Below are positions 2-12,766 of a DNA stretch of 39,206 nt, one piece after another. Made by a program: the position numbers and the translations under genes. Source of the DNA: Aquihabitans sp. (lineage in GTDB: Bacteria; Actinomycetota; Acidimicrobiia; Acidimicrobiales; Iamiaceae); assembly GCA_025353965.1 (NCBI GenBank), contig JANXNS010000136.1, positions 1 through 39,206 on the forward strand, read 5' to 3'. The notes below the pieces were generated by a model. It was not told where the DNA came from and searched no databases. It saw only the letters and a list, made by a program, of their open reading frames with translations. The stretch's first letter is position 1. Every line of letters begins with the position of its first letter.

Positions 2-997
2 GTCGAGGACGGAAAGGTTGCAGCGCCGGCGCGTTTGAGGAGTGGCTGGAGCTCCCGGAACTTGCTCGACCTCTTCATCCGCAATGGGTGCTCACCGATC
101 GATGATGCAGATGGTCGTAGTACGTGGTTCGAACTGCGTGATACCGGCGCGATCTACATGATGAAACGTCGTGCGGAAGACCAGGGGCATGTGCTGTCGG
201 TTCTCCGAAACCTGGGCACAACCAAGCAAAACAGCTCCCTCCTCGCATCCTGGGGGCTCACCTTCTCTTACCCTAAACCCCTAGGCCTGATTGAATATCT
301 CGTGACGGTGTTCACGCGTCCCGACGAGGACGCATTGGTGCTGGACTTCTTCTCAGGCTCGGCCACCACAGCACATGCGGTGATGTCAGCGAACCTGCGA
401 GACGCAGGTAACCGCCGCCACATGCAGATTCAGCTGCCGGAGCCCGTAGCAGATCCCAACGGATCAACGATTGCCGATCTCGCTCGCCTTCGCATCGACA
501 AAGCGGGCGAATCTCTCGCGGGAACCTTGAAGAACCAACTCCAAGTCTCAGGAGCGCCATCCCTCGACATCGGCTTCCGCGCGTACCGACTCGTCGATAC
601 CAACTTCACGAAGTGGCACGTTTCGAGTGAGGCCGAGCCTGACAAGCTGGCACAGCACCTCCTGGACCTACGCGACAGTGCGACCGACGATGCAACCGCA
701 GACGAGCTACTGACGGAGATCCTGCTCAAGCAGGGCTACTCCCTTACCGAAACAGTCTCTACCGCCGAAGTGGCCGACCTCGACGTCAGGCTCGTTCGTG
801 ACCGTGACGGTGACACCGGCGTGCTCGCCTACCTGAATGAGCATATGAAGCCGACGCTGGAGCAGCTCCGTGCATTCGCCGATGAGTCGCCAACGCGCAT
901 CATCGTTCTAGAGGATGCCTTCCAGGGTGACGACGAGCTGAAGACCAACCTTGCCCAGCTCGCCAAGAGCAAGGGCATCGAACTGTGGACGGCATAG
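2..997 (+). CDS. mod: Type III restriction-modification methyltransferase (Mod), C-terminal part
   Basis: This is the C-terminal half of an adenine-specific DNA methyltransferase of a type III restriction-modification system. It recognises the target site and methylates it, and it also serves as the specificity subunit for Res. The reading frame is open to the left edge, so about 330 residues are visible where full Mod proteins usually have 550-650. The beta-class order (catalytic DPPY first, AdoMet motif I late) fits: only the late motif I, DFFSGSATTAHAV, is seen (codons near 343-380), preceded by YPKPLGLIEYL. The C-terminal stretches FRAYRLVDTNFTKW, ELLTEILLKQGYSL and IIVLEDAFQGDDELKTNLAQ are typical of type III Mod. 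The stop lies 4 bases before the res start. The catalytic DPPY motif and the start are outside the window, so activity cannot be judged. Confidence 0.93.
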   Translation, partial: VEDGKVAAPARLRSGWSSRNLLDLFIRNGCSPIDDADGRSTWFELRDTGAIYMMKRRAEDQGHVLSVLRNLGTTKQNSSLLASWGLTFSYPKPLGLIEYLVTVFTRPDEDALVLDFFSGSATTAHAVMSANLRDAGNRRHMQIQLPEPVADPNGSTIADLARLRIDKAGESLAGTLKNQLQVSGAPSLDIGFRAYRLVDTNFTKWHVSSEAEPDKLAQHLLDLRDSATDDATADELLTEILLKQGYSLTETVSTAEVADLDVRLVRDRDGDTGVLAYLNEHMKPTLEQLRAFADESPTRIIVLEDAFQGDDELKTNLAQLAKSKGIELWTA

Positions 998-1001
998 CGA
1001 C

Positions 1002-3968
1002 ATGAGCGACGAGTTCAAGTTCGATCCGAAGCAGAAACACCAGCTCGATGCCATCAGCTCAGTCGTCGATCTCTTTGAAGGACAGCCGAAGGATGCCGAC
1101 GCGCTCGTCACCAAGCTGCGGGGAATGGTCCCAAGAGCAGAGGGAGACCAGATTGCCATGGCCTACGACCTCACCCAGGAGGTGGGCGCAGTGGGCAATA
1201 ACCTTGTACTGGACCAGGAGGCGGTCCTACAGAACCTTCGTGCCGTACAGGATCGCAATGGCCTCGAGGTGCGGGACAACCTCGCCGGGAACGCGTTCGA
1301 CTTTGACGTCGAGATGGAGACCGGGACCGGCAAGACCTACGTCTACCTGCGGAGCCTCTTCGAGCTAGCCGAGAAGTACAACTTCAAGAAGTTCGTCATC
1401 CTCGTACCAAGTGTGGCCATCCGTGAAGGTGTCTCGACCAGCATCCGGCAGATGAAGCAGCACTTCCGAGACATGTACCCCGCGCAGCCGTTTGACAGCG
1501 GCGTCTACTCGGGCTCCTCGGCGGAGGAGGTACAGGGTTTCGCCACGTCCACGAACGTGCAGATCTTGATCATGACCATCGACTCGATCCGTGGGGACAA
1601 GAACACCCGAATTATCCACCAGACACGGGACAAGTTGAACGGTCTGCGACCTATCGACTATCTGAAGGCCACACACCCTGTGGTGATCATGGACGAGCCA
1701 CAGAACATGGAATCCGAGCTATCAACGTCAGCCATCGCGGAGCTCGAACCGCTGGCGACGTTGCGCTACTCCGCGACGCACCGCAAGCAGCGTAACGTCG
1801 TATACCGACTTGACCCAGTCGATGCCCACGACCTCGGGCTGGTCAAGCAGATTGTGATCGCCGAAGTTGCCCAACAGGGCGCCGATGCTGCCCCTTACAT
1901 CAAGGTGGTGGATGTCAAGCGTGACCCGTGGGTCGCCAAGCTTGAACTGTCTGTCCGAGCGAAGGACGGAACGCTGAGCCGCAAAGTGATCAACGTTAAG
2001 CAGGGCCAGGATCTTGCGACGCTGACGGACAACCCGGCCTACGCCAACAACTGGCGCATTCTTGGACTCAGCATCGACCCTGCCTACATCGAGCTCACCA
2101 ACCACGGCATCCTCCATCTTGGCGAGGAGATCGGCGGCAACACGCAGTCGATCTACCGCGAGATGATCCGCGAGACCATCCGCGAGCACCTGCGCAAGGA
2201 GCAGATGCTGCGACCCAAGGGCATAAAGGTCCTCAGCCTGTTCTTCGTCGACAAGGTAGCGAGCTTCCTAGGTGAAGGTGCGAGCAACGCTGACGCTGAC
2301 GGCGACTTCGTGCAATGGTTCGACGAGCTATTCAAGGAGGAGCGCGCCAAGTCGGCCGCGTGGCAAGAACTCCTGCCGCAGGAACCAATCGAGCTTCGCC
2401 GCGCCTACTTCTCGCAGCTCAAGCGTGGCAAGGCCAGTTCGTTTGCCGACACCTCAGGAAGCACCAAGGCCGACGACGACTCCTATGACCTGATCATGCG
2501 CGACAAGGAGCGCCTGCTGGACCAGGCGACGCCTGTTCGATTCATCTTCAGCCACTCCGCCCTGCGCGAGGGTTGGGACAACCCAAACGTGTTCCAAATC
2601 TGCACCCTTCGCGAGATGGGTGCAGAGGTCGAACGTCGCCAAACCATTGGCCGTGGGCTTCGGCTCCCTGTCACAAAGACTGACGAGGGCTACGAGCGCG
2701 TAGGTGATCGTGGCGTCGCGCAACTGACGGTGATCGCCAACGAGTCGTACCAGCAGTTCGCCAAGAACCTGCAGAGTGATTACGAGAAAGCCGGAGTGGA
2801 GATTGGCCGCATCCGAGTGCAGGAGTTCTCCAGAATTGTCCTGTTCGAGGATGACCAAGCGGAGTACGAGACTGAGTACTTCGGATGGGAGCGGTCGAAG
2901 GAACTGTACGAGTTCCTGGATCAGCAAGGCTTCATCAAGGACGGCAAGATCACGGCGAAGTACCAGCCAGACCAGGAAAGCTTCTCTCTCGGACTACCGG
3001 GCTTTTTCTCTCCGTACGAGGACACCGTCGTTGAGTACATCGGGCGCTCCAGCATGGAGAGGTACGTCAAGGCCGCAAGCAAGCGCCAGCCGAGACGGCT
3101 CAACAAGGAGCTTTTCGACGATCCGGTGTTCGAGGAGTTCTGGCGTGCCATCAGCCGGAAGACGACATACCGGGTCGCGGTGGACCGTGACGACCTCATC
3201 AAGGATGCCGTCAAGCAGATCAGTGAGTCGCCAGCCATCGACCCGCTTCGGATCCAGATCACCAAGGCCGGGGTGAAAATCCTACGCGGTGGAGCGAAGG
3301 CGTCTGAGACCAGCACCCGCTCGGCTGAGCTCAAGGGCAACTACGACCTGCCGGACATCATCACGGAGCTACAGGACGCGACCTCCCTCACCCGCAAGAC
3401 CATCATCGACATCCTGGTCGGCTCCGAACGCCTTGCCGAGTTCATTGGCAACCCCAATGACTTCATCCAGATGGTGAAGCGCAACGTTCAGAACGTGCTT
3501 GCCGAGATCGTCATCAAGGGCATCCAGTACGAGCAGATCGGCGGCTACGTGTACGAGCTGCGCGAGCTGCAGAAGGACGGGCTGGAGGAGAAGGATCGAT
3601 TCATCGACCAGCCCTACAAGGTGCAGAACCAGCAGAAGACTGATTTCGATTATCTCGTGCTCGACTCCGATCCTGAGCGGAAATTTGCCGAGCTTCTTGA
3701 TGACCGATCCGACATCAAGCTCTTCATGAAACTGCCCTCCAAGTTCAGGATCTCCACCCCCGTAGGGGACTACAACCCCGACTGGGCAATCCTCAAGCAA
3801 GAGGACGGGGAAGACCGGATCTACATGATTCGCGAGACCAAGAGCACCGAGGACGAGGTCAAGCGACGCCCGACCGAGAACGCCAAGATCAAGGCTGCCA
3901 AGAAGCACTTCGAGGCCATCGGCGTCGGCGACTATGCCGTCTCGACACCCGCCAACTGGAGAATTTAG
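1002..3968 (+). CDS. res: Type III restriction enzyme, helicase/endonuclease subunit (Res)
   Basis: Res is the ATP-dependent translocating and cleaving subunit that acts in complex with Mod on unmodified DNA. The 988 residues match the family length. Superfamily 2 helicase motifs are intact: ETGTGKT at residues 106-112, DEPQ at 231-234, SAT at 257-259, SALREGWDNPNVFQ near 518-531, and QTIGRGLRLP near 547. A C-terminal PD-(D/E)XK nuclease site is visible as NPDW (Asp927) followed by RETK (Glu945, Lys947). I chose the ATG at 1002, 4 bases after the mod stop, because the protein then begins with the conserved MSDEFKFDPKQKHQLDAI; an in-frame start at 951 would overlap mod by 47 bases. The stop is directly followed by the GTG of the next gene, so the three genes form one operon. 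The enzyme looks functional. Confidence 0.95.
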   Translation: MSDEFKFDPKQKHQLDAISSVVDLFEGQPKDADALVTKLRGMVPRAEGDQIAMAYDLTQEVGAVGNNLVLDQEAVLQNLRAVQDRNGLEVRDNLAGNAFDFDVEMETGTGKTYVYLRSLFELAEKYNFKKFVILVPSVAIREGVSTSIRQMKQHFRDMYPAQPFDSGVYSGSSAEEVQGFATSTNVQILIMTIDSIRGDKNTRIIHQTRDKLNGLRPIDYLKATHPVVIMDEPQNMESELSTSAIAELEPLATLRYSATHRKQRNVVYRLDPVDAHDLGLVKQIVIAEVAQQGADAAPYIKVVDVKRDPWVAKLELSVRAKDGTLSRKVINVKQGQDLATLTDNPAYANNWRILGLSIDPAYIELTNHGILHLGEEIGGNTQSIYREMIRETIREHLRKEQMLRPKGIKVLSLFFVDKVASFLGEGASNADADGDFVQWFDELFKEERAKSAAWQELLPQEPIELRRAYFSQLKRGKASSFADTSGSTKADDDSYDLIMRDKERLLDQATPVRFIFSHSALREGWDNPNVFQICTLREMGAEVERRQTIGRGLRLPVTKTDEGYERVGDRGVAQLTVIANESYQQFAKNLQSDYEKAGVEIGRIRVQEFSRIVLFEDDQAEYETEYFGWERSKELYEFLDQQGFIKDGKITAKYQPDQESFSLGLPGFFSPYEDTVVEYIGRSSMERYVKAASKRQPRRLNKELFDDPVFEEFWRAISRKTTYRVAVDRDDLIKDAVKQISESPAIDPLRIQITKAGVKILRGGAKASETSTRSAELKGNYDLPDIITELQDATSLTRKTIIDILVGSERLAEFIGNPNDFIQMVKRNVQNVLAEIVIKGIQYEQIGGYVYELRELQKDGLEEKDRFIDQPYKVQNQQKTDFDYLVLDSDPERKFAELLDDRSDIKLFMKLPSKFRISTPVGDYNPDWAILKQEDGEDRIYMIRETKSTEDEVKRRPTENAKIKAAKKHFEAIGVGDYAVSTPANWRI

Positions 3969-5918
3969 GTGCGGCTTGCTAAGGCAGAGTTCAGTGGCTT
4001 CGGGCGCCTAGCAGACGCTCAGGTCAACCTCGATCACAAGGTCGTCGCCATCGTTGGTCCAAACGAGGCGGGCAAGACGACCCTGCTGAGAGCGCTCGCC
4101 TACATCGACAATGGCGAGTCCCTCACCGTTGCACAACGGTCGCGCGGGCTTCCAAGCGACATTGCTGATGATCAAGTTGTGGTTCGAGTTCAGTACCGGT
4201 TGAGCGAGGAGGATCAAGCCGCTGTCGATCATCTTGACTTGAACGATATACCGACCGAATTCTGGCTCTCCAGGACTGCAGGGCCGGGCGACGCCGTCAG
4301 GAGTATCACTCCGGTCCCACGCAAGAATCTCGCCTCCCTCACGACCGCTCTGGGGGCGGTCAGCGCCGCCGCGACGGACGCCGAGTTCGCTACATTCGAG
4401 CCCACAGAACCTCAGGAGCGCGAGGAGGGTGACGAGGACCACGAGGTTGATGAGGCGCGCGCATCGTTCGCCGACCGCCTCAGGGAGTCGCTGCGAGGGC
4501 TCGAGCCCGATGCCGGCTCCGACGTCGAAACGCAGGCAAGCGAACTCGACCCAGCGACATGGATCGCGGAGTTCGAGGAGCACGGCCTAGGTGGGGACAT
4601 CCGCACGGCGCTTGAACAGGTGCGGGCGTGGATCGACATGGCCGATCCCACTGATGAGGTCGCTCGGATCCTCTACGAGCGCTCCCCGGACATCCTGTTG
4701 TTCTCGGATGGGGACAGGCTTCTGTCATCTAGCTACGAACTGACCGAGGATAGTGTTCAGGCCCCGCCTGCAGCGCTGCAGAACCTCGCCACGATGGCAG
4801 GTATCGCGCTCAATGAGCTCTGGAAGGTGATCAACAACGGCGACGAGGGTGCTCGCGAGACTCTCGTCGAACAGGCGAATCAGACGCTGCAGACCAAGTT
4901 CACCCAGGTTTGGAATCAGTCGAGTATCTCCGCTCATTTGAAGATCAACGGCACGAGTCTCGAAATTCGCATCAAGCAGGACGGACGCACGATCACGCAG
5001 TTTCACGAGCGCAGCGCAGGCGTCCAGATGTTCGTGGCTCTGGTTGCGTTCCTCGCCGTCAAGGGTCAGGCGGTGCCGCCGATCCTCCTCATCGACGAGG
5101 CAGAAACCCACCTACACATCGATGCCCAGGCGGACCTCGTGAACGAGTTCATGACCCAGACCCGGGCCGCGAAGATCATTTACACGACCCACTCGCCAGC
5201 CTGCTTGCCACCCGACCTCGGGACCAACATCCGTGCGGTTGTGCCAGATCCTGATAACGGGCAGCGCAGCCTCGTCGAAGGCAGCTTCTGGACGAAGGGC
5301 GTCGGCTACTCGCCCTTGATGCTCGCCATGGGCGCCGGTGCCGCTGCCTTCTCTGCAGCCCGCAAGGTCGTGCTCGCTGAGGGCGCGACCGAGATGCTGA
5401 TGTTGCCTTCGCTGATCAAGAAGGCACTCGAAGTTGAGGATCTCGACTATCAGGTCGCCCCTGGGCTGTCGGAAGTCCCCATTGCCATGTATCCGGAACT
5501 CGACCTCGAAGGCGCCCGAGTCGCCTTCTTGGTGGACGGCGACCAGGGCGGCAAGCAACTGCACGATGCACTCGTCGGAGCTGGCGTTCCCGAGAACCGC
5601 ATCATCACCCTTGGGGCCCTGACCCTCGAGAATCTGCTTGACCCGGACGCCTACAAACAAGTCGTCGTAGAACTGATCAACGAATCATCCTCCGGTGAGG
5701 GAATCTCGCCGGAGGATTTGCCGGATCTGCCAGTGGATGGCCTTTGGCCGACTGTGATCCGAGACTGGGCTAAGCAGAATGGCCACCCGTTACCCGGGAA
5801 GCGCGTAATTGCCAGCCGTCTTGTTGAGGATGGCCTTGCTGTTCCGAGCGACGACGGGAGCCAAGTGCTCAAGACGCTGCACCGAGCAATAACGGGGGCA
5901 CTCGGCAGTGGAGATTGA
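3969..5918 (+). CDS. OLD-family ATP-dependent endonuclease (AAA ATPase + TOPRIM)
   Basis: This 649-residue protein has the two-domain plan of OLD (overcoming lysogenization defect) nucleases. The N-terminal ABC-type ATPase shows GPNEAGKT at residues 30-37, Walker B LLIDEAETHLH (Asp376, Glu377) and the sensor His408 in TTHSP. The C-terminal TOPRIM domain shows the metal-binding Glu471 in LAEGATEMLMLPSL and Asp523/Asp525 in VDGDQGG. OLD proteins nick or cut DNA, and several act in phage defence (GajA of Gabija is one). The GTG start follows the res stop with no gap, so it is translated with the type III genes. Its 3' end overlaps the start of a broken helicase-like frame by 11 bases, which recalls the OLD-UvrD pairs of class 2 systems. 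Whether it assists the restriction enzyme or acts alone is not visible in the sequence. Confidence 0.88.
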   Translation: MRLAKAEFSGFGRLADAQVNLDHKVVAIVGPNEAGKTTLLRALAYIDNGESLTVAQRSRGLPSDIADDQVVVRVQYRLSEEDQAAVDHLDLNDIPTEFWLSRTAGPGDAVRSITPVPRKNLASLTTALGAVSAAATDAEFATFEPTEPQEREEGDEDHEVDEARASFADRLRESLRGLEPDAGSDVETQASELDPATWIAEFEEHGLGGDIRTALEQVRAWIDMADPTDEVARILYERSPDILLFSDGDRLLSSSYELTEDSVQAPPAALQNLATMAGIALNELWKVINNGDEGARETLVEQANQTLQTKFTQVWNQSSISAHLKINGTSLEIRIKQDGRTITQFHERSAGVQMFVALVAFLAVKGQAVPPILLIDEAETHLHIDAQADLVNEFMTQTRAAKIIYTTHSPACLPPDLGTNIRAVVPDPDNGQRSLVEGSFWTKGVGYSPLMLAMGAGAAAFSAARKVVLAEGATEMLMLPSLIKKALEVEDLDYQVAPGLSEVPIAMYPELDLEGARVAFLVDGDQGGKQLHDALVGAGVPENRIITLGALTLENLLDPDAYKQVVVELINESSSGEGISPEDLPDLPVDGLWPTVIRDWAKQNGHPLPGKRVIASRLVEDGLAVPSDDGSQVLKTLHRAITGALGSGD

Positions 5919-6027
5919 CCAGAATCGCCGGGCCTACGTCTCCGGCCAGGAGAAGTTGGCCTCCCTCTTGCTGACAGCATGGTCTCCCGGAAGTGGGCGT
6001 TCGCGAGCGAGGTCCCCTCGATGCTGA
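5908..6027 (+). pseudogene. 5' stub of a UvrD-like helicase gene, truncated at the P-loop
   Basis: A GTG at 5908 overlaps the end of the OLD gene and opens a 39-codon frame. It begins with VEIDQNRRAYVS and continues to LASLLLTA near residues 17-24. UvrD/Rep-like helicases, including those paired with OLD nucleases, start this way and go straight into the Walker A loop after such a hydrophobic strand. Here the next residues are WSPGSGRS, and the frame stops at 6025-6027, so the helicase body is missing. Minus-strand coding-like sequence starts at about the same point (near 5977), which suggests a rearrangement junction there. The call rests on a short match in a suggestive position, so it is tentative. 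Confidence 0.45.
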
Positions 6028-6378
6028 CATCGCACGGGTCGATGCTCACGTCGTCGGGGATCGCAGCGGTGAAATTGTCTGCCGCCGCTACTGGGCAGTC
6101 GGGGACTTGACATCGAACACGTGTTTGGGGAAAATGAAGGAGTTCTCGTTGCTCCCCCGTTGTCGCGGCATCAGGAGCTGGGCTGCCCGGTCCAACCGCC
6201 GTTTTTGGGCGACGTCGTGTCGGCGGGCGACCAACGTCGTAGTCGTCGCTACCCCAGGGCAAACGAAGTTGGGCGCTCATGAGACGCGAGCCAGCACATC
6301 CGCCACAGCCCGTGACCATGTCAGCCAGGGTCGACGATCTCGACTGCTTGGTGGGCAGTCGGCTACCTTCAATGACAT
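5977..6378 (-). pseudogene. Unrecognised degraded gene, minus strand
   Basis: Reading the minus strand from an ATG at 6378 gives a protein-like frame interrupted by one TGA (6277-6279). It continues through KRRLDRAAQLLMPRQRG and SFIFPKHVFDVKSPTA to a stop at 6088-6090. A neighbouring frame then carries DNFTAAIPDDVSIDPCDVSI and SLANAHFRETML, down to about 5977. One nonsense change and one frameshift would join these into a single product of about 130 residues. A purine-rich stretch lies just upstream of the ATG. I do not recognise the family. The strand is opposite to the defence genes and its left end coincides with the break in the helicase stub. Confidence 0.3.
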
Positions 6379-6440
6379 CACAATCTGGGTCCCTTTCTCT
6401 CCTCCGTAACGTGGTGTGGGCCAAGGGATCCAACCGAACC

Positions 6441-6462
6441 CCCCGAGACTGCTATCTCGGGG
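6441..6462. other. Perfect 8-bp inverted repeat (hairpin)
   Basis: CCCCGAGA at 6441-6448 and TCTCGGGG at 6455-6462 are exact complements around a 6-base loop. On the plus strand TATTCT follows, a weak T-rich run. It may be a decayed terminator or an end of a mobile element. It lies in a gene-free stretch between the degraded region and the large STAND gene. Confidence 0.35.
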
Positions 6463-6705
6463 TATTCTCTACGTCTGCCATCGGATCGCCTGGCGGTCGT
6501 CGCCCTTCTTACCATTGATGGAATTACAACCGTGGGATTCCGAAGGCTACGTCAGTATCCTCGGCGCGGCAAGGGTGATCTGCTAAGGCGCTGAGTGAGC
6601 GCGTCAGAACTGACCCTCGAGCGCTGTCGGTGTCCACTCGACCAGGCGACCCTCGAACTCCAATGCCTCCTGGAGGCACCCCGACATCGACCCAGCTCGC
6701 TATCT

Positions 6706-7077: not shown

Positions 7078-10000
7078 ATGGCCGTGGACAAGCTGAACTC
7101 GGGCTTCGACGCGATACGGCCGTGGCGTGGCTCGGTCGATCGCGGATTTGAGGAGCTTTGCTATCAGCTGTTCAAGGGAGACGCCCCCGTCGGCACTCGG
7201 CCGGTGCGTACGGGGAACCCGGATGGTGGAGTCGAGTGGTACACAGTGCTGCCGGATGGTTCTGAGCACGGGTGGCAAGCCAAGCATGTCCACGATGTCG
7301 ATTCACTTCTCGGGGCGATGACCGAGAGTGTCCGAGCAGTAGTGAAGGACCGGCCCAACCTCGCCCGACTGACGTTCCTGATCTCGTCGAACCTCTCGGC
7401 TGGCACCAGTGGCAAGCGGCGAAAGTCTCAACGCCAGAAGTACAACGACAAGGTCGAGTTCTGGCGAACCAAGATCGCCGGCGCTGATGCGATCGAGTTC
7501 GTGCTGATCCAGGAGAGCGACATCTTGGACCGGCTAGCGCTACCTGAACACCAAGGTCGGAAGTGGTTCTGGTGGGCGGACCCAGAGCTCACGGATGGCT
7601 GGCTGGCCCAAAAGCTAGCAGCTCAGGTTCAGGTCGCTGGCGAGAAATACCGCCCCGACTTGCAGGTCGACCTCCCCATCGAGGGGGACCTGGCCGCCCT
7701 CGGCTTCGACGATTCGGCGCTCCATGAGGTGGACCGGTTACGCCGAGCGATCGTTTCAGAGGCGGCAGATATGTGGCTCACCAAGAAGGGCCCGGGGAAT
7801 CTCATCCAGGCGTACGACGCCATCCTGGCTGCAGCCGAGGTGCTCAAGACGGCCGCCAAGAGCTTCTACTTCGAGCCCTCGACCATCGAGTCGGACCTCC
7901 TCCCACTCCGTGGAGCCACAGAGGCTTACGACAAGGCCATCGCTGACGCGACTGACATTGAGCACGAGATTGAGGAGACGTGGCGCACCGAACATCCCGA
8001 TCAAGCTCACTACGCCGTTCAGTCCAACACACCGCATGAGGCTCGCGGATCTCGCGCTCGTCGCCTCGCGAATGGCGCAAGAGAGCTCGTCCGGTGGTTC
8101 GACTCGACGCCGGGTCGGGCCTTGTGCAGCGGCACGTACTTCCTCGAAGGTGTAGCCGGCTCAGGCAAGACGCACTTGCTCCTCGAGGGCACCCAGCGTG
8201 CGTTAGACGGCGGGCGACCAGCCGTCTTCCTAACGGCGGCACAGTTTGGTCGAGGTGATCTTTGGGCCAGCGTCTGTGATCAGCTCGGACTCCCGACTAT
8301 CGGGAGCGACGTCCTGCTCGGGGCAATGAACGCAGCAGGCGAGGCCGCCGGTCCGAACGGACGCCGCTTCGTGATCTCAGTCGATGCTCTCAACGAGACC
8401 ACGGACACAACGTTTTGGCGTACACACCTCCCGTCGCTACGGGCAGCGGTGGCCGGCTGGCCCCACGTCGGGCTGGCGGTGTCGTGCCGGGATACCTACG
8501 TCCGAGTCGTTTGCGAGGAAGAGGAGCAGTCCCGCTTTGTGCGTCGTTCTCATCCAGGCTTCGCTGGCCACGAGGTCGACGCCACACAGAAGTTCTTTGC
8601 GTTCCATGGATTACAGGCTCCGAGGATTCCCTTGCTCGTGCCCGAGTTCAGCTTGCCGTTGTTTCTCAAGCTGTTCTGTGAAGGATTGAAGGACTCTGGC
8701 GAGACGGCCTACGGTGGGCACGAAGGTCGTGTTGCGATCTTCCAGCGGTACCTGGATGGCAAGCTTCGCCGGGTTGCGGAGCGGTTCCGCCCCGAGGCTG
8801 CCTCTGAAATCGAGCGGTCGGTGGCGTTGCGGGAGGTGACCGGCGTTCTCGACGCGCTACTCGACGAGATGGCCCTGACTGGCACTGAGGGTGTGTCGCT
8901 CGATCGGGCCGAGGTGCTCGCGGGCGAAGCCCTCGGTTCGCATGCGGCCAAGTGGCCGGTCGTCCTAGGCGCCATGGACAGTGAGGGGATCCTCAATCAA
9001 GAGCTGCTGTACCTGAGTGGCGACAGCGAACAAGGGGTGCGCGTTCTGTTCCAGGCTCTCGCCGACTACATGATCCTCCGGCGCCGACTTGACTCATCGG
9101 GTGATCCGACGACCGACGAAACCCTCCACAACTGGCTCCGAGACCAGTGCAGCTGGGGCATCGTGGACGCAGCCGCCGTGGCTCTCCCCGAGCTCTACGC
9201 CCTTGAACTCCCTGACCTGGTCCGTCTCGATCTCCAGCACCTGCACGAGCCAGACCGAGACGACCGTGAGGCGTATAGACGCTTTCACCGCGACAAGCAC
9301 CTCTTGTTGGCGGTGGTCGAGACGCTGCCGTATCGAGATAGCGCTGCGGTTACCAAGCGAACGGTCGACTTGTTGAATGAGAGTCGCCGCTTCATGCGGA
9401 GCGAAGAAGTGTTCCGGATCATGTTCCTGATCGCACCGCAGCCGGGGAACCGCCTCAACGGGGACTGCCTCCACCGACACCTAGCACAGCTCTCTATGCC
9501 GAGCAGAGACGAATACTTCGGCTTTCCGACCTACCACGAGCTGACGGATGAAACCACCGCCGCCTCAGTGCTCGCTCGATGGGCGAGCCGAGGGCCCTAC
9601 CCAGACCACGATTCTGAGGTCATCGAGCTTGCCTGCATTCCACTGATGTGGCTACTGCTCTCGCCGAACCGCTACATGCGTGATTGGGTCACTAAGGCGC
9701 TCGTCCAGCTACTCCGCGGCCATCTCGCCGCTATGGAGCGACTCCTCGTCCGATTCTGGCCGATCAATGATCCGTACGTCGTCCAGCGAGTCCTGGTAAT
9801 CGCCTATGGCGCAGTCATGCGATCCGATCCCTCACAGCAGGATGAAGCGAAGAAGCTCGTCGCGACTGTGCGCAAGCTCGTGTTCACACCGCCTGTCCGA
9901 CCCGACGAGCTCATGCTCGATGCAGCGCGAGGGATTGTCGAGTGGGGGCTTGCCAACGGGCTCGCGCCCCTCACTTATCGCAAGGCCATCACCCGTCCGT

Positions 10001-11670
10001 ATGGGCTGCCGAAGCCCGGCCCTGTTCCGAGTGAGGAAACGCTGGAGGCGAAATTCGGCTGGAAGGATGGGCAGCCCGACGACGTGCGCTATTCGACCAT
10101 CCTCCACTCGTTGATCGGCCTCGGCGATTTCGGCCGCTATGTCGTTCAGCCAGGGATCCACACCTTCTCTAGGTACCCACTAAGCAAGCCTTACCCCGAA
10201 TCGGACCCCGCACCCGATCCAGGGAACCAGATTCTCAAGGGCCGGTGGACCAAGTTCGAGAAGTCGCTGTCAGCCGATCAGCTGACTCAGCTCGCGGACT
10301 TCATGACCGAGAACCCCAACGGGCCAGACGTCCTCGATACGTACCGCACAGCCTTCTTCAATGGTCTTGCACCAGAGCAATCGCGCCTTCTGCACGAATC
10401 CTTCCGGCAGGGTCGGCGGCGACGGTTTCGTGACGACAACTATCCAGCTGACCGAGCAAGCCGATGGGTGTTCGTTCAGACGCTCAGACTCGGGTGGACC
10501 CCACAACGCTTCGGCACAGAGGACCGCAGGGTGGGGCTGAATCGCAGTGGCCGAGACTCCCATAAGGCTGAGCGATGGGGAAAGAAGTATCAGTGGATGG
10601 CCTACCACGAGATCCTCGCGAGAATTGCTGACAACTTCCACAGCGCTCGTCAGTGGTCCGACCACGTCGACTACACCAGCCTTAGCCAGATCACTGGCGA
10701 CCGGGAGATCGACCCGAGCCTCCCTCCAGTGCCCTTCCACCAACTGCTGGAACCAGAGTCCGGTAACGACACATGGCGACCCCCTCCCATAGCGGTCGCC
10801 CCGTGGCCGCCCGTCCCGATCGACTTTCAACGAGTCGGCGGGGATCTTCTGCGATTCATCAATGGCGGGATCAGCGAGAGTGACCTCGACCAGGTCGTAC
10901 TGCTGCAAGACATCGCTGGCACAGCCTGGGTTCTCCTCGACGCATGCATCACCGAATGCGATCCCAAAGCCGACAAGTCCTGGCTGGGACTTCAGCAGAC
11001 CTTTTACTTGAATAGCTGGTTTGTGCCGTCAGGTGAGGCCGATGCCCTGCTCCCTCGTGTCTCTTCGATAATCCGCCGTGATCACCACGATCTCATCGAC
11101 AGCCACGGACACATTGACTGCTGCTACGTAGGAGAAGTCGGGTGGACACCGCACGACTGTGCACACCAGCAACTCGACTTCTCAACCGTTGGGTCGGAAG
11201 TTGACTCGTTCCGGGTTGCACCCACTGTCGAGAACTATTGCTGGGAAGGGAGCCTGCAGGACTGCTCCATCAATGACACGGTATCGGCCAGCCTGCCATC
11301 GGCCTTTATTCGATCGCGCTCAAAACTGGAGTTTGACGAGCGTGGGCCGTCGTGGACGGAGGTCGGTGAGGTGGCATTCGTCAACCTTGGGCACAGTGAG
11401 GAAGAACGTCAGCGAGGGTTCCTTGTCCGGGGCGACTGGTTGTCTCGCTTCATGAAAGACCACAATCTCGACCTCGTCGTCGGGGCATCGACCCTCCGGT
11501 GGAAGTTGACCGGTGATCATCCGCACCGAGAACCACCAAACCCAGCCGAGGACAGCCGTCGTGACGTGTATTCCGCCGCCCGGATCGACTCCAATCTGGC
11601 GATACACCTTGGAACCCAGATCGTCGTGCATGATTACGATCGAATCGAGATCCAGGCGCAACCTGACTGA
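7078..11670 (+). CDS. Avs-like STAND NTPase with N-terminal PD-(D/E)XK nuclease
   Basis: This 1530-residue protein has three parts. Residues 1-100 carry a restriction-endonuclease-like domain: GFEELCYQLF (Glu25/26), NPDGGVEWY (Asp49, Glu53) and WQAKH (Gln67, Lys69), the E, D and QxK pattern of Mrr-like nucleases. A STAND-type NTPase follows, with GVAGSGKT at 358-365 and a Walker B-like strand VISVDALNE (Asp436). The remaining 1000 residues or so are a helical, repeat-like C-terminal region with no motif I recognise. In Avs (antiviral STAND) proteins such a C-terminal part senses a phage protein, and oligomerisation switches on the N-terminal nuclease. I chose the ATG at 7078 because the nuclease domain begins immediately; the frame is open further upstream, to about 6595, but that sequence is unlike this family. 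The protein stands alone, in keeping with single-gene Avs systems. The Avs subtype and the target are unknown. Confidence 0.75.
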   Translation: MAVDKLNSGFDAIRPWRGSVDRGFEELCYQLFKGDAPVGTRPVRTGNPDGGVEWYTVLPDGSEHGWQAKHVHDVDSLLGAMTESVRAVVKDRPNLARLTFLISSNLSAGTSGKRRKSQRQKYNDKVEFWRTKIAGADAIEFVLIQESDILDRLALPEHQGRKWFWWADPELTDGWLAQKLAAQVQVAGEKYRPDLQVDLPIEGDLAALGFDDSALHEVDRLRRAIVSEAADMWLTKKGPGNLIQAYDAILAAAEVLKTAAKSFYFEPSTIESDLLPLRGATEAYDKAIADATDIEHEIEETWRTEHPDQAHYAVQSNTPHEARGSRARRLANGARELVRWFDSTPGRALCSGTYFLEGVAGSGKTHLLLEGTQRALDGGRPAVFLTAAQFGRGDLWASVCDQLGLPTIGSDVLLGAMNAAGEAAGPNGRRFVISVDALNETTDTTFWRTHLPSLRAAVAGWPHVGLAVSCRDTYVRVVCEEEEQSRFVRRSHPGFAGHEVDATQKFFAFHGLQAPRIPLLVPEFSLPLFLKLFCEGLKDSGETAYGGHEGRVAIFQRYLDGKLRRVAERFRPEAASEIERSVALREVTGVLDALLDEMALTGTEGVSLDRAEVLAGEALGSHAAKWPVVLGAMDSEGILNQELLYLSGDSEQGVRVLFQALADYMILRRRLDSSGDPTTDETLHNWLRDQCSWGIVDAAAVALPELYALELPDLVRLDLQHLHEPDRDDREAYRRFHRDKHLLLAVVETLPYRDSAAVTKRTVDLLNESRRFMRSEEVFRIMFLIAPQPGNRLNGDCLHRHLAQLSMPSRDEYFGFPTYHELTDETTAASVLARWASRGPYPDHDSEVIELACIPLMWLLLSPNRYMRDWVTKALVQLLRGHLAAMERLLVRFWPINDPYVVQRVLVIAYGAVMRSDPSQQDEAKKLVATVRKLVFTPPVRPDELMLDAARGIVEWGLANGLAPLTYRKAITRPYGLPKPGPVPSEETLEAKFGWKDGQPDDVRYSTILHSLIGLGDFGRYVVQPGIHTFSRYPLSKPYPESDPAPDPGNQILKGRWTKFEKSLSADQLTQLADFMTENPNGPDVLDTYRTAFFNGLAPEQSRLLHESFRQGRRRRFRDDNYPADRASRWVFVQTLRLGWTPQRFGTEDRRVGLNRSGRDSHKAERWGKKYQWMAYHEILARIADNFHSARQWSDHVDYTSLSQITGDREIDPSLPPVPFHQLLEPESGNDTWRPPPIAVAPWPPVPIDFQRVGGDLLRFINGGISESDLDQVVLLQDIAGTAWVLLDACITECDPKADKSWLGLQQTFYLNSWFVPSGEADALLPRVSSIIRRDHHDLIDSHGHIDCCYVGEVGWTPHDCAHQQLDFSTVGSEVDSFRVAPTVENYCWEGSLQDCSINDTVSASLPSAFIRSRSKLEFDERGPSWTEVGEVAFVNLGHSEEERQRGFLVRGDWLSRFMKDHNLDLVVGASTLRWKLTGDHPHREPPNPAEDSRRDVYSAARIDSNLAIHLGTQIVVHDYDRIEIQAQPD

Positions 11671-11707
11671 CGGCGCTGGCTCGGCCTCTCCCGCCCGGAT
11701 GGCGTGG

Positions 11708-11965
11708 TTACGACCTCGGACTGAACGGCACCAACGGGTTGTCAGTTCGCACGTACAGCGGGTGCCGAGGCATCCCCTTCGTGGTCGTGCCCAGGCATCG
11801 CACATCATCGAGGGTGGCCAAGACATTCGCACCTCTGCCGAGAAGGGAGCCGTGGCTTCCCCAGGCCGCAACGACGCACGTCGCATCCTCAGCGGCCTCC
11901 GCGATCGCCTGATCCCCCTCCGGTACGATCCCGGGACCAACCGGCGGCCCAGTCCGGAGGTCTCG
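11708..11965 (-). pseudogene. DUF1643 protein, C-terminal remnant
   Basis: The minus strand encodes the conserved end of a DUF1643 protein. GPPVGPGIVPEGDQAIAEA is followed by CVVAAWGSHG and then by CLGTTTKGMPRHPLYV near the stop at 11708-11710. These match the family's PVGPxND, VxAWGxHG and GxPRHPLY blocks. The N-terminal half is absent: upstream of about 11965 the frame runs into sequence that on the plus strand encodes the DnaB-like protein. DUF1643 genes are frequent cargo of mobile elements and their function is unknown. This copy is truncated and should be inactive. Confidence 0.6.
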
Positions 11966-11986
11966 TATGGCCCTTTGCGGAAACCG

Positions 11987-12766
11987 ATGACGCACGACCG
12001 TCGGCATGACTCTGCGGGCAACGGCTGGTGGCGGTCGGACCGATCGGTGTCGCTCCTCGACAGCATCGACGCACTTCTCGACGACATCGAACGGCTCGTC
12101 GGCCAAGACGAGCAAAAGGAGGCCCTCGACGATGCCTACCCGATCGTTACCGGGCTCCACGCCCTCGACGAGCTCTGCGGCGGGGTTCGCTCGGCACGTC
12201 TAACCCTCATCGAAGCTGACCATCTGGCCCAGGCCAACGCACTGGTCTGCACGATTGCCCGCACGATCGAATATCCGACGCTTGTCGCTGTCCAGGTGGT
12301 CCAGGACGCGACCACCTGGATACTGGCTGGCGAAACGGGTATTCCAGCCGTCCTGATTGCCCACAGCCTCCTGACGAAAGACCACTGGTCGGATATTGCC
12401 AGTGCGATCGGACGCCTCGGAGAGCAAGGGGTTCGGCTCACCGAGACCGCCACCATCAAGGGCATCAGCTACCTCTGCCAGGTCAAGCTGCCCGTCGTGC
12501 TTGTCGTTCAGGGCATCGAACGCTTCGGACCAGTTGAATCAGTTGCGCCGGCGCTCATGCACCTGGCCGAGAACACCGGGATGGCCGTTCTGGCGACCTG
12601 CCAGCCGATTGCCCACACGCCGGACTGGGGCCTCCAGGGCTGCACGCACATCTCCATGCACACCCATGGGCTTACCGGGCGTGCGACCCTTGTGACCTCC
12701 AACGAGCTTGATCCGTTGAACGTCTACCAGGCTGCGATTGAGCCTCTCGTGGCTGACTTCCGCTGA
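11987..12766 (+). CDS. DnaB-like RecA-fold protein lacking Walker motifs
   Basis: This 259-residue protein resembles the C-terminal ATPase domain of replicative helicase DnaB in outline. Residues 45-60 (PIVTGLHALDELCGGV) correspond to the TGxxxLDxxxGGL strand-turn. GETGIPAVLIAHSLLTKDHW followed by IGRLGEQGVRL parallels the DnaB segment between Walker A and Walker B, and VVLVVQGIERFG sits where VVDYLQLM would be. The P-loop position reads EADHLAQAN, with no GKT, and the Walker B acidic residue is missing, so ATP hydrolysis is unlikely. The ATG at 11987 is preferred; the frame is open upstream but overlaps the DUF1643 remnant. Its place at the island end, after the Avs-like gene, may mean a defence or element-maintenance role, but none is established. 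Confidence 0.55.
   Translation: MTHDRRHDSAGNGWWRSDRSVSLLDSIDALLDDIERLVGQDEQKEALDDAYPIVTGLHALDELCGGVRSARLTLIEADHLAQANALVCTIARTIEYPTLVAVQVVQDATTWILAGETGIPAVLIAHSLLTKDHWSDIASAIGRLGEQGVRLTETATIKGISYLCQVKLPVVLVVQGIERFGPVESVAPALMHLAENTGMAVLATCQPIAHTPDWGLQGCTHISMHTHGLTGRATLVTSNELDPLNVYQAAIEPLVADFR

Follow-up and report, generated by a model that had tools for sequence, protein, structure and literature searches.

The start of the contig carries an actinobacterial defense island in which, probably, a type III restriction-modification operon (mod-res) gained a complete, solitary OLD-family nuclease gene directly behind res, read from the same transcript and followed by an independent Avs2 gene. This arrangement would be a modular stacking of defense genes and not a new machine. 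We favor this explanation because the motifs of the OLD protein are conserved at 27–73% identity, the genomic surroundings of those relatives are varied and mobile and never include mod-res, relatives of res carry different downstream genes, and tight spacing is common in the window.

The window, the whole stretch analyzed here, comprises bases 1–39,206 of contig C86 in an assembly of 264 contigs and 3.18 Mb. The mod gene (2–997, forward strand), encoding a type III DNA methyltransferase, is truncated by the contig start, so that the last 331 residues are present and the 5' part lies beyond the edge (PADLOC MTase_III, 2.5e-47; Pfam N6_N4_Mtase, 1.8e-7). We searched the rest of the assembly for the N-terminal half of mod and did not find it on other contigs. 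The res gene (1002–3968) is complete and encodes a restriction/helicase subunit of 988 amino acids with both a ResIII domain and a C-terminal endonuclease domain (PADLOC REase_III, 1.2e-266; Pfam ResIII and RE_endonuc, 7.7e-33). A mod gene adjoining a res gene with helicase and endonuclease domains identifies the pair as a type III restriction-modification system. The OLD gene (3969–5918, 649 amino acids; AAA_15/AAA_21) and the Avs2 gene downstream have the same orientation.

First, the gene behind res is, by its motifs, an intact OLD-family nuclease gene, with DNA cleavage as its predicted activity. ABC-ATPase motifs and Toprim acidic residues occur in one chain, with Walker A (GPNEAGKT, residues 30–37), Walker B (LLIDE, residues 373–377, within the string LLIDEAETH), and H-loop (TTHS) sequences as well as Toprim residues E471xxxE475, D523xD525, and T552xE554. 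All of these catalytic motifs are invariant or conservatively kept in an alignment of nine sequences. Within it, E471, D523, D525, and E554 do not vary even at 27% identity, and either E or D occupies position 475. The order of the Toprim ligands is that of the T. scotoductus and B. pseudomallei OLD proteins (PMC7049728). The GTG start of the window gene aligns with the ATG of its relatives. In one close relative (L033), the OLD-like_TOPRIM model matched with an E-value of 0.00079, below the curated cut-off, and a structure prediction for the window protein from only four sequences had a mean pLDDT of 45.8, too low for a comparison with the TsOLD fold, which lacks the Class 2 helical insert. 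A UvrD gene was immediately downstream in none of nine OLD loci, which places the window gene with the single-gene Class 1 enzymes; no UvrD-like GajB gene adjoins it, as would be the case in Gabija.

Second, mod, res, and OLD look co-transcribed. The initial annotation gave their spacing as 4 and 0 bases, which the coordinates bear out; the GTG start of OLD directly abuts the TAG stop of res. Tight spacing alone means little, because 8 of 22 same-strand neighbor pairs in the window are equally close (–12 to +10 bases). This frequency, together with the varied neighbors of OLD relatives elsewhere, would suit a fortuitous adjacency in which OLD is expressed independently of the mod-res promoter, but neither a promoter nor a leader would fit into the zero-base junction of res and OLD. 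Read-through from res into OLD is therefore almost certain unless res contains an internal promoter, and we regard fortuitous adjacency as very improbable. One transcript for the three genes is thus the probable arrangement, and the suggestion that two adjacent systems share a promoter fits mod-res plus OLD well. So close a junction would also permit translational coupling and might have been selected because the genes are then expressed jointly, a point that counts against simple stacking.

The operon had been proposed to contain a fourth member, a helicase-like stub overlapping OLD by 11 bases and marking the loss of a helicase gene. The forward-strand frame (5908–6027, 39 codons, GTG start) and its 11-base overlap with the end of OLD exist, but it is a chance open frame and not a gene. 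It had no Pfam, PADLOC, or NCBIfam match, and none in Pfam even at an E-value of 10. When the frame was aligned with UvrD proteins of its own genome, between 6 and 98% of its shuffled versions scored as well, varying with the protein; for two further UvrD proteins, the shares were 17 and 36%. A tblastn search with seven UvrD proteins against all six frames of positions 5881–6600 found nothing better than an E-value of 0.1. These searches gave no sign of a helicase remnant, and no UvrD gene followed OLD in any of eight relatives, those 70–74% identical included. A decayed Gabija-like pair, in which OLD once had a UvrD partner now reduced to the 5908–6027 stub and the pair had joined the type III operon, could draw on OLD-UvrD pairs that do lie behind mod-res elsewhere (see below) and on the short string PGSGRS within the frame, which has Walker-A-like letters but lacks the lysine. 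Given the failure of every helicase search and the UvrD-free relatives, this scenario is largely refuted and its likelihood is minimal. There is no evidence for a lost helicase gene at this locus, which gives a clean negative for a decayed Gabija pair; of the proposed four-gene operon, mod, res, and OLD stand.

Third, there is no conserved link between this OLD subfamily and type III genes. Few genomes have the subfamily (3 of 396 others in the order; 3 of 395 sampled across the phylum), and only eight relatives, some on short contigs, were inspected, three at 70–74% identity and five at 27–35%. None was beside mod-res. In Mycolicibacterium neoaurum (L033), OLD is flanked by a Mutator-family (IS256-type) transposase on one side and an IS21 element on the other; other relatives adjoin an integrase and an excisionase-like gene (L035), precede a C5 methylase (L036; read from the sequences), lie near a TrwC relaxase (L040), follow an HsdR-SLFN gene (L041), or stand alone on a short contig (L034). 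In L032, OLD is followed by a TrlF-like gene (read from the sequence; Pfam shows AAA_23), and an excisionase-like HTH gene is also present. This TrlF-like PHP/AAA gene (L032:2463-4172), directly behind a 74% identical OLD in Actinomycetota UBA10799, may represent a further type of neighbor. Scans of viral_contigs with the OLD protein or its alignment found no full-length relative. The initial annotation had named OLD homologs away from type III genes as the finding that would speak against a composite system, and this is what we observed for the window subfamily, although the general gene order still exists elsewhere with a different OLD subfamily.

That order, mod-res-OLD-UvrD, which was to be sought in other genomes, occurs tightly in one locus and loosely in another, without recurrence for the window OLD. 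In L201:5822-13491, from an IMG/VR contig of 79,962 bases that also carries two serine recombinase genes and a phage portal-like gene, mod (645 amino acids), res (996), an OLD gene with an OLD-like_TOPRIM match (544), and a short UvrD-like gene (375) overlap successively by 14, 4, and 4 bases. The OLD protein of this locus belongs to a different subfamily from that of the window (E-value of 2.4e-9 to the A1 profile). On plasmid pCmarinum2 of Corynebacterium marinum (L210:2301-8666 and L216), an OLD-UvrD pair of the L201 type lies about 150 bases behind mod-res; its UvrD match falls immediately beyond the start point of the circular record and is absent from the gene table, probably because it crosses that start. 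The mod-res pairs of L201 and pCmarinum2 are only distantly related. Counting the window, an OLD-type gene has ended up behind a type III operon on at least three occasions, and the existence of the other two loci counts against stacking.

Could mod-res and OLD then be one functional unit, with OLD an effector dependent on Mod-Res and fired, for example, when Res translocates, when it produces DNA ends, or when a phage inhibits it? The zero-base res-OLD junction, the overlapping genes of L201, and other nuclease-type genes placed tightly behind res (GmrSD in L155 and L163; AAA_13 in L060) would agree with such a unit. Against it, none of the eight relatives of the window OLD adjoins type III genes, and the window subfamily was downstream of res in 0 of 85 loci by blastp and profile search. 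The L201-type OLD-UvrD pair, moreover, is common on plasmids, among which 2,199 records have an OLD match, and in the loci read usually adjoins unrelated genes or, in Rhodococcus, a type I system. We consider a single unit unlikely, as dependence of OLD on Mod-Res finds no support in the comparison of sequences, and retain modular stacking as the better account.

Fourth, relatives of res carry diverse genes at the position that OLD occupies in the window. The 85 relatives with a readable downstream side comprise 30 actinobacterial loci and 55 from viral_contigs. Behind the closest relative (L060, 72% identity), an AAA_13 gene (PADLOC PDC-S06) overlaps res by 4 bases; a PD-(D/E)XK gene and a UvrD/PD-(D/E)XK gene lie 167 bases behind res in L100 (65%), and unrelated genes lie 963 bases away in L061 (62%). 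A same-strand gene was within 10 bases of res in 7 of 30 actinobacterial loci and within 20 bases in 16 of 55 viral_contigs loci, with products that include AAA_21, SIR2-like, a CBASS 2TM effector with its cyclase, Abi_C, GmrSD (twice), EVE/AAA_5, and SNF2 proteins. The slot behind res might be a docking place used again and again by diverse nuclease or suicide effectors (OLD, OLD-UvrD, GmrSD, AAA_13/PrrC-like, SIR2, and CBASS 2TM-cyclase) that are translationally coupled to the restriction complex, expressed with it, and perhaps triggered by its failure, with the window as one instance. We hold this idea only tentatively and think it rather doubtful; the counts cover genes behind type III res alone. 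If it holds, many orphan effectors would be linked to type III restriction, and defense islands could be read by a testable rule.

The upstream side of these loci has a pattern of its own. In 15 of 30 actinobacterial res loci and about 25 of 60 from the viral collection, roughly half, the gene for an SNF2-type or related helicase lies ahead of mod, and a DUF4391 gene often comes after the helicase gene. Such loci include L061, L062, L070, L100, L105, L147-L149, L155, L156, and others as well as plasmid loci L130, L131, and L133-L136. Judged by title and abstract, the openly licensed papers searched contained no description of the helicase-mod-res order or of type III systems with OLD, DUF4391, or SNF2 partners. 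An SNF2 gene that might belong upstream of the window mod was sought on the other contigs of the assembly and not found.

How might the stacked genes work? Mod and Res would form the usual EcoP15I-like complex, marking one strand of an asymmetric site and cutting unmarked DNA between two inversely oriented sites. OLD would assemble through its ABC-ATPase part into a dimer or a larger oligomer and act as an ATP-controlled nuclease, with the Toprim metal site cleaving or degrading DNA. It would constitute a second layer beside the restriction enzyme and may finish DNA opened by Res or act alone; DNA ends left by Res cleavage could naturally serve as substrates for exonuclease action by OLD. Physical contact between OLD and Mod-Res is neither needed nor suggested. 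On this model, the locus illustrates how a restriction operon acquires a second nuclease gene that is expressed from the same message.

Avs2 is a separate, independent defense gene beyond OLD. It encodes an Avs2-type (AVAST type 2) STAND NTPase (7078–11670, forward strand; PADLOC Avs2, 1.9e-253; NCBIfam Avs2, 3.3e-165, below the model cut-off). The PADLOC match begins at residue 170 of an open frame that runs from 6595, and the ATG at 7078 is the likely start, 1,159 bases (1.16 kb) beyond the end of OLD. Finding this type of NTPase in an actinobacterium is an observation in its own right, as is the 161-codon in-frame open extension ahead of the likely start. Between OLD and Avs2 lie promoter-like matches at 6107 and 6952 and a terminator-like hairpin at 6441–6462 (forward strand, CCCCGAGACTGCTATCTCGGGG), all of them weak evidence; the pattern scan found three such hairpins where 0.9 would be expected by chance. 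Positions 5919–6594 form a stretch of 676 bases without a recognizable gene, whose minus strand can be read as NSFIFPKHVFDVKSP or, in another frame, as AADNFTAAIPDDVSIDP, perhaps the remnant of a frame-shifted gene. As a DNA query in 61 genomes, the OLD-Avs2 gap produced matches of 29–65 bases only, and a protein follow-up gave nothing convincing. Beyond Avs2, a 417-codon frame (11513–12766) with no Pfam match starts 158 bases before the Avs2 end; part of it is vaguely RecA/DnaB-like but lacks a Walker A motif. The genes scanned beyond ~14 kb have housekeeping or transport functions, and the defense island therefore seems to end before that point.

Comparison with known systems helps to place these genes. 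Like EcoP15I and related type III systems, the operon has mod and then res, with a ResIII helicase and C-terminal endonuclease domain in the latter, but it differs in having OLD joined at its 3' end; an SNF2-helicase gene, found ahead of mod in many relatives, would fall in a position hidden by the contig edge. The best profile and PDB matches of OLD are to the ATPases of PARIS (AriA), Septu (PtuA), and retrons (PtuA), which share the common ABC-ATPase core, whereas the window OLD has its own Toprim domain and no AriB, PtuB, or retron partner was found nearby. Gabija (Class 2 OLD GajA with GajB) likewise places an OLD-type nuclease within a defense island, but the window has no GajB/UvrD gene or remnant, and matches to GajA models are weak and partial. 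The window OLD also resembles the solitary Class 1 enzymes, such as P2 Old and Thermus scotoductus OLD (PDB 6P74), which combine ABC-ATPase and Toprim parts, have metal ligands in the order E, E/D, D, D, T/S, and E, and have no UvrD partner. Similarity to the window OLD is weak (profile E-value of 1.2e-7 over the Walker A region), and Class 1 genes, unlike this one, usually do not occur in defense islands (PMC10568477). Because P2 Old is the sole Class 1 enzyme for which defense has been shown (PMC10568477), a solitary OLD gene within a defense island is worth testing.
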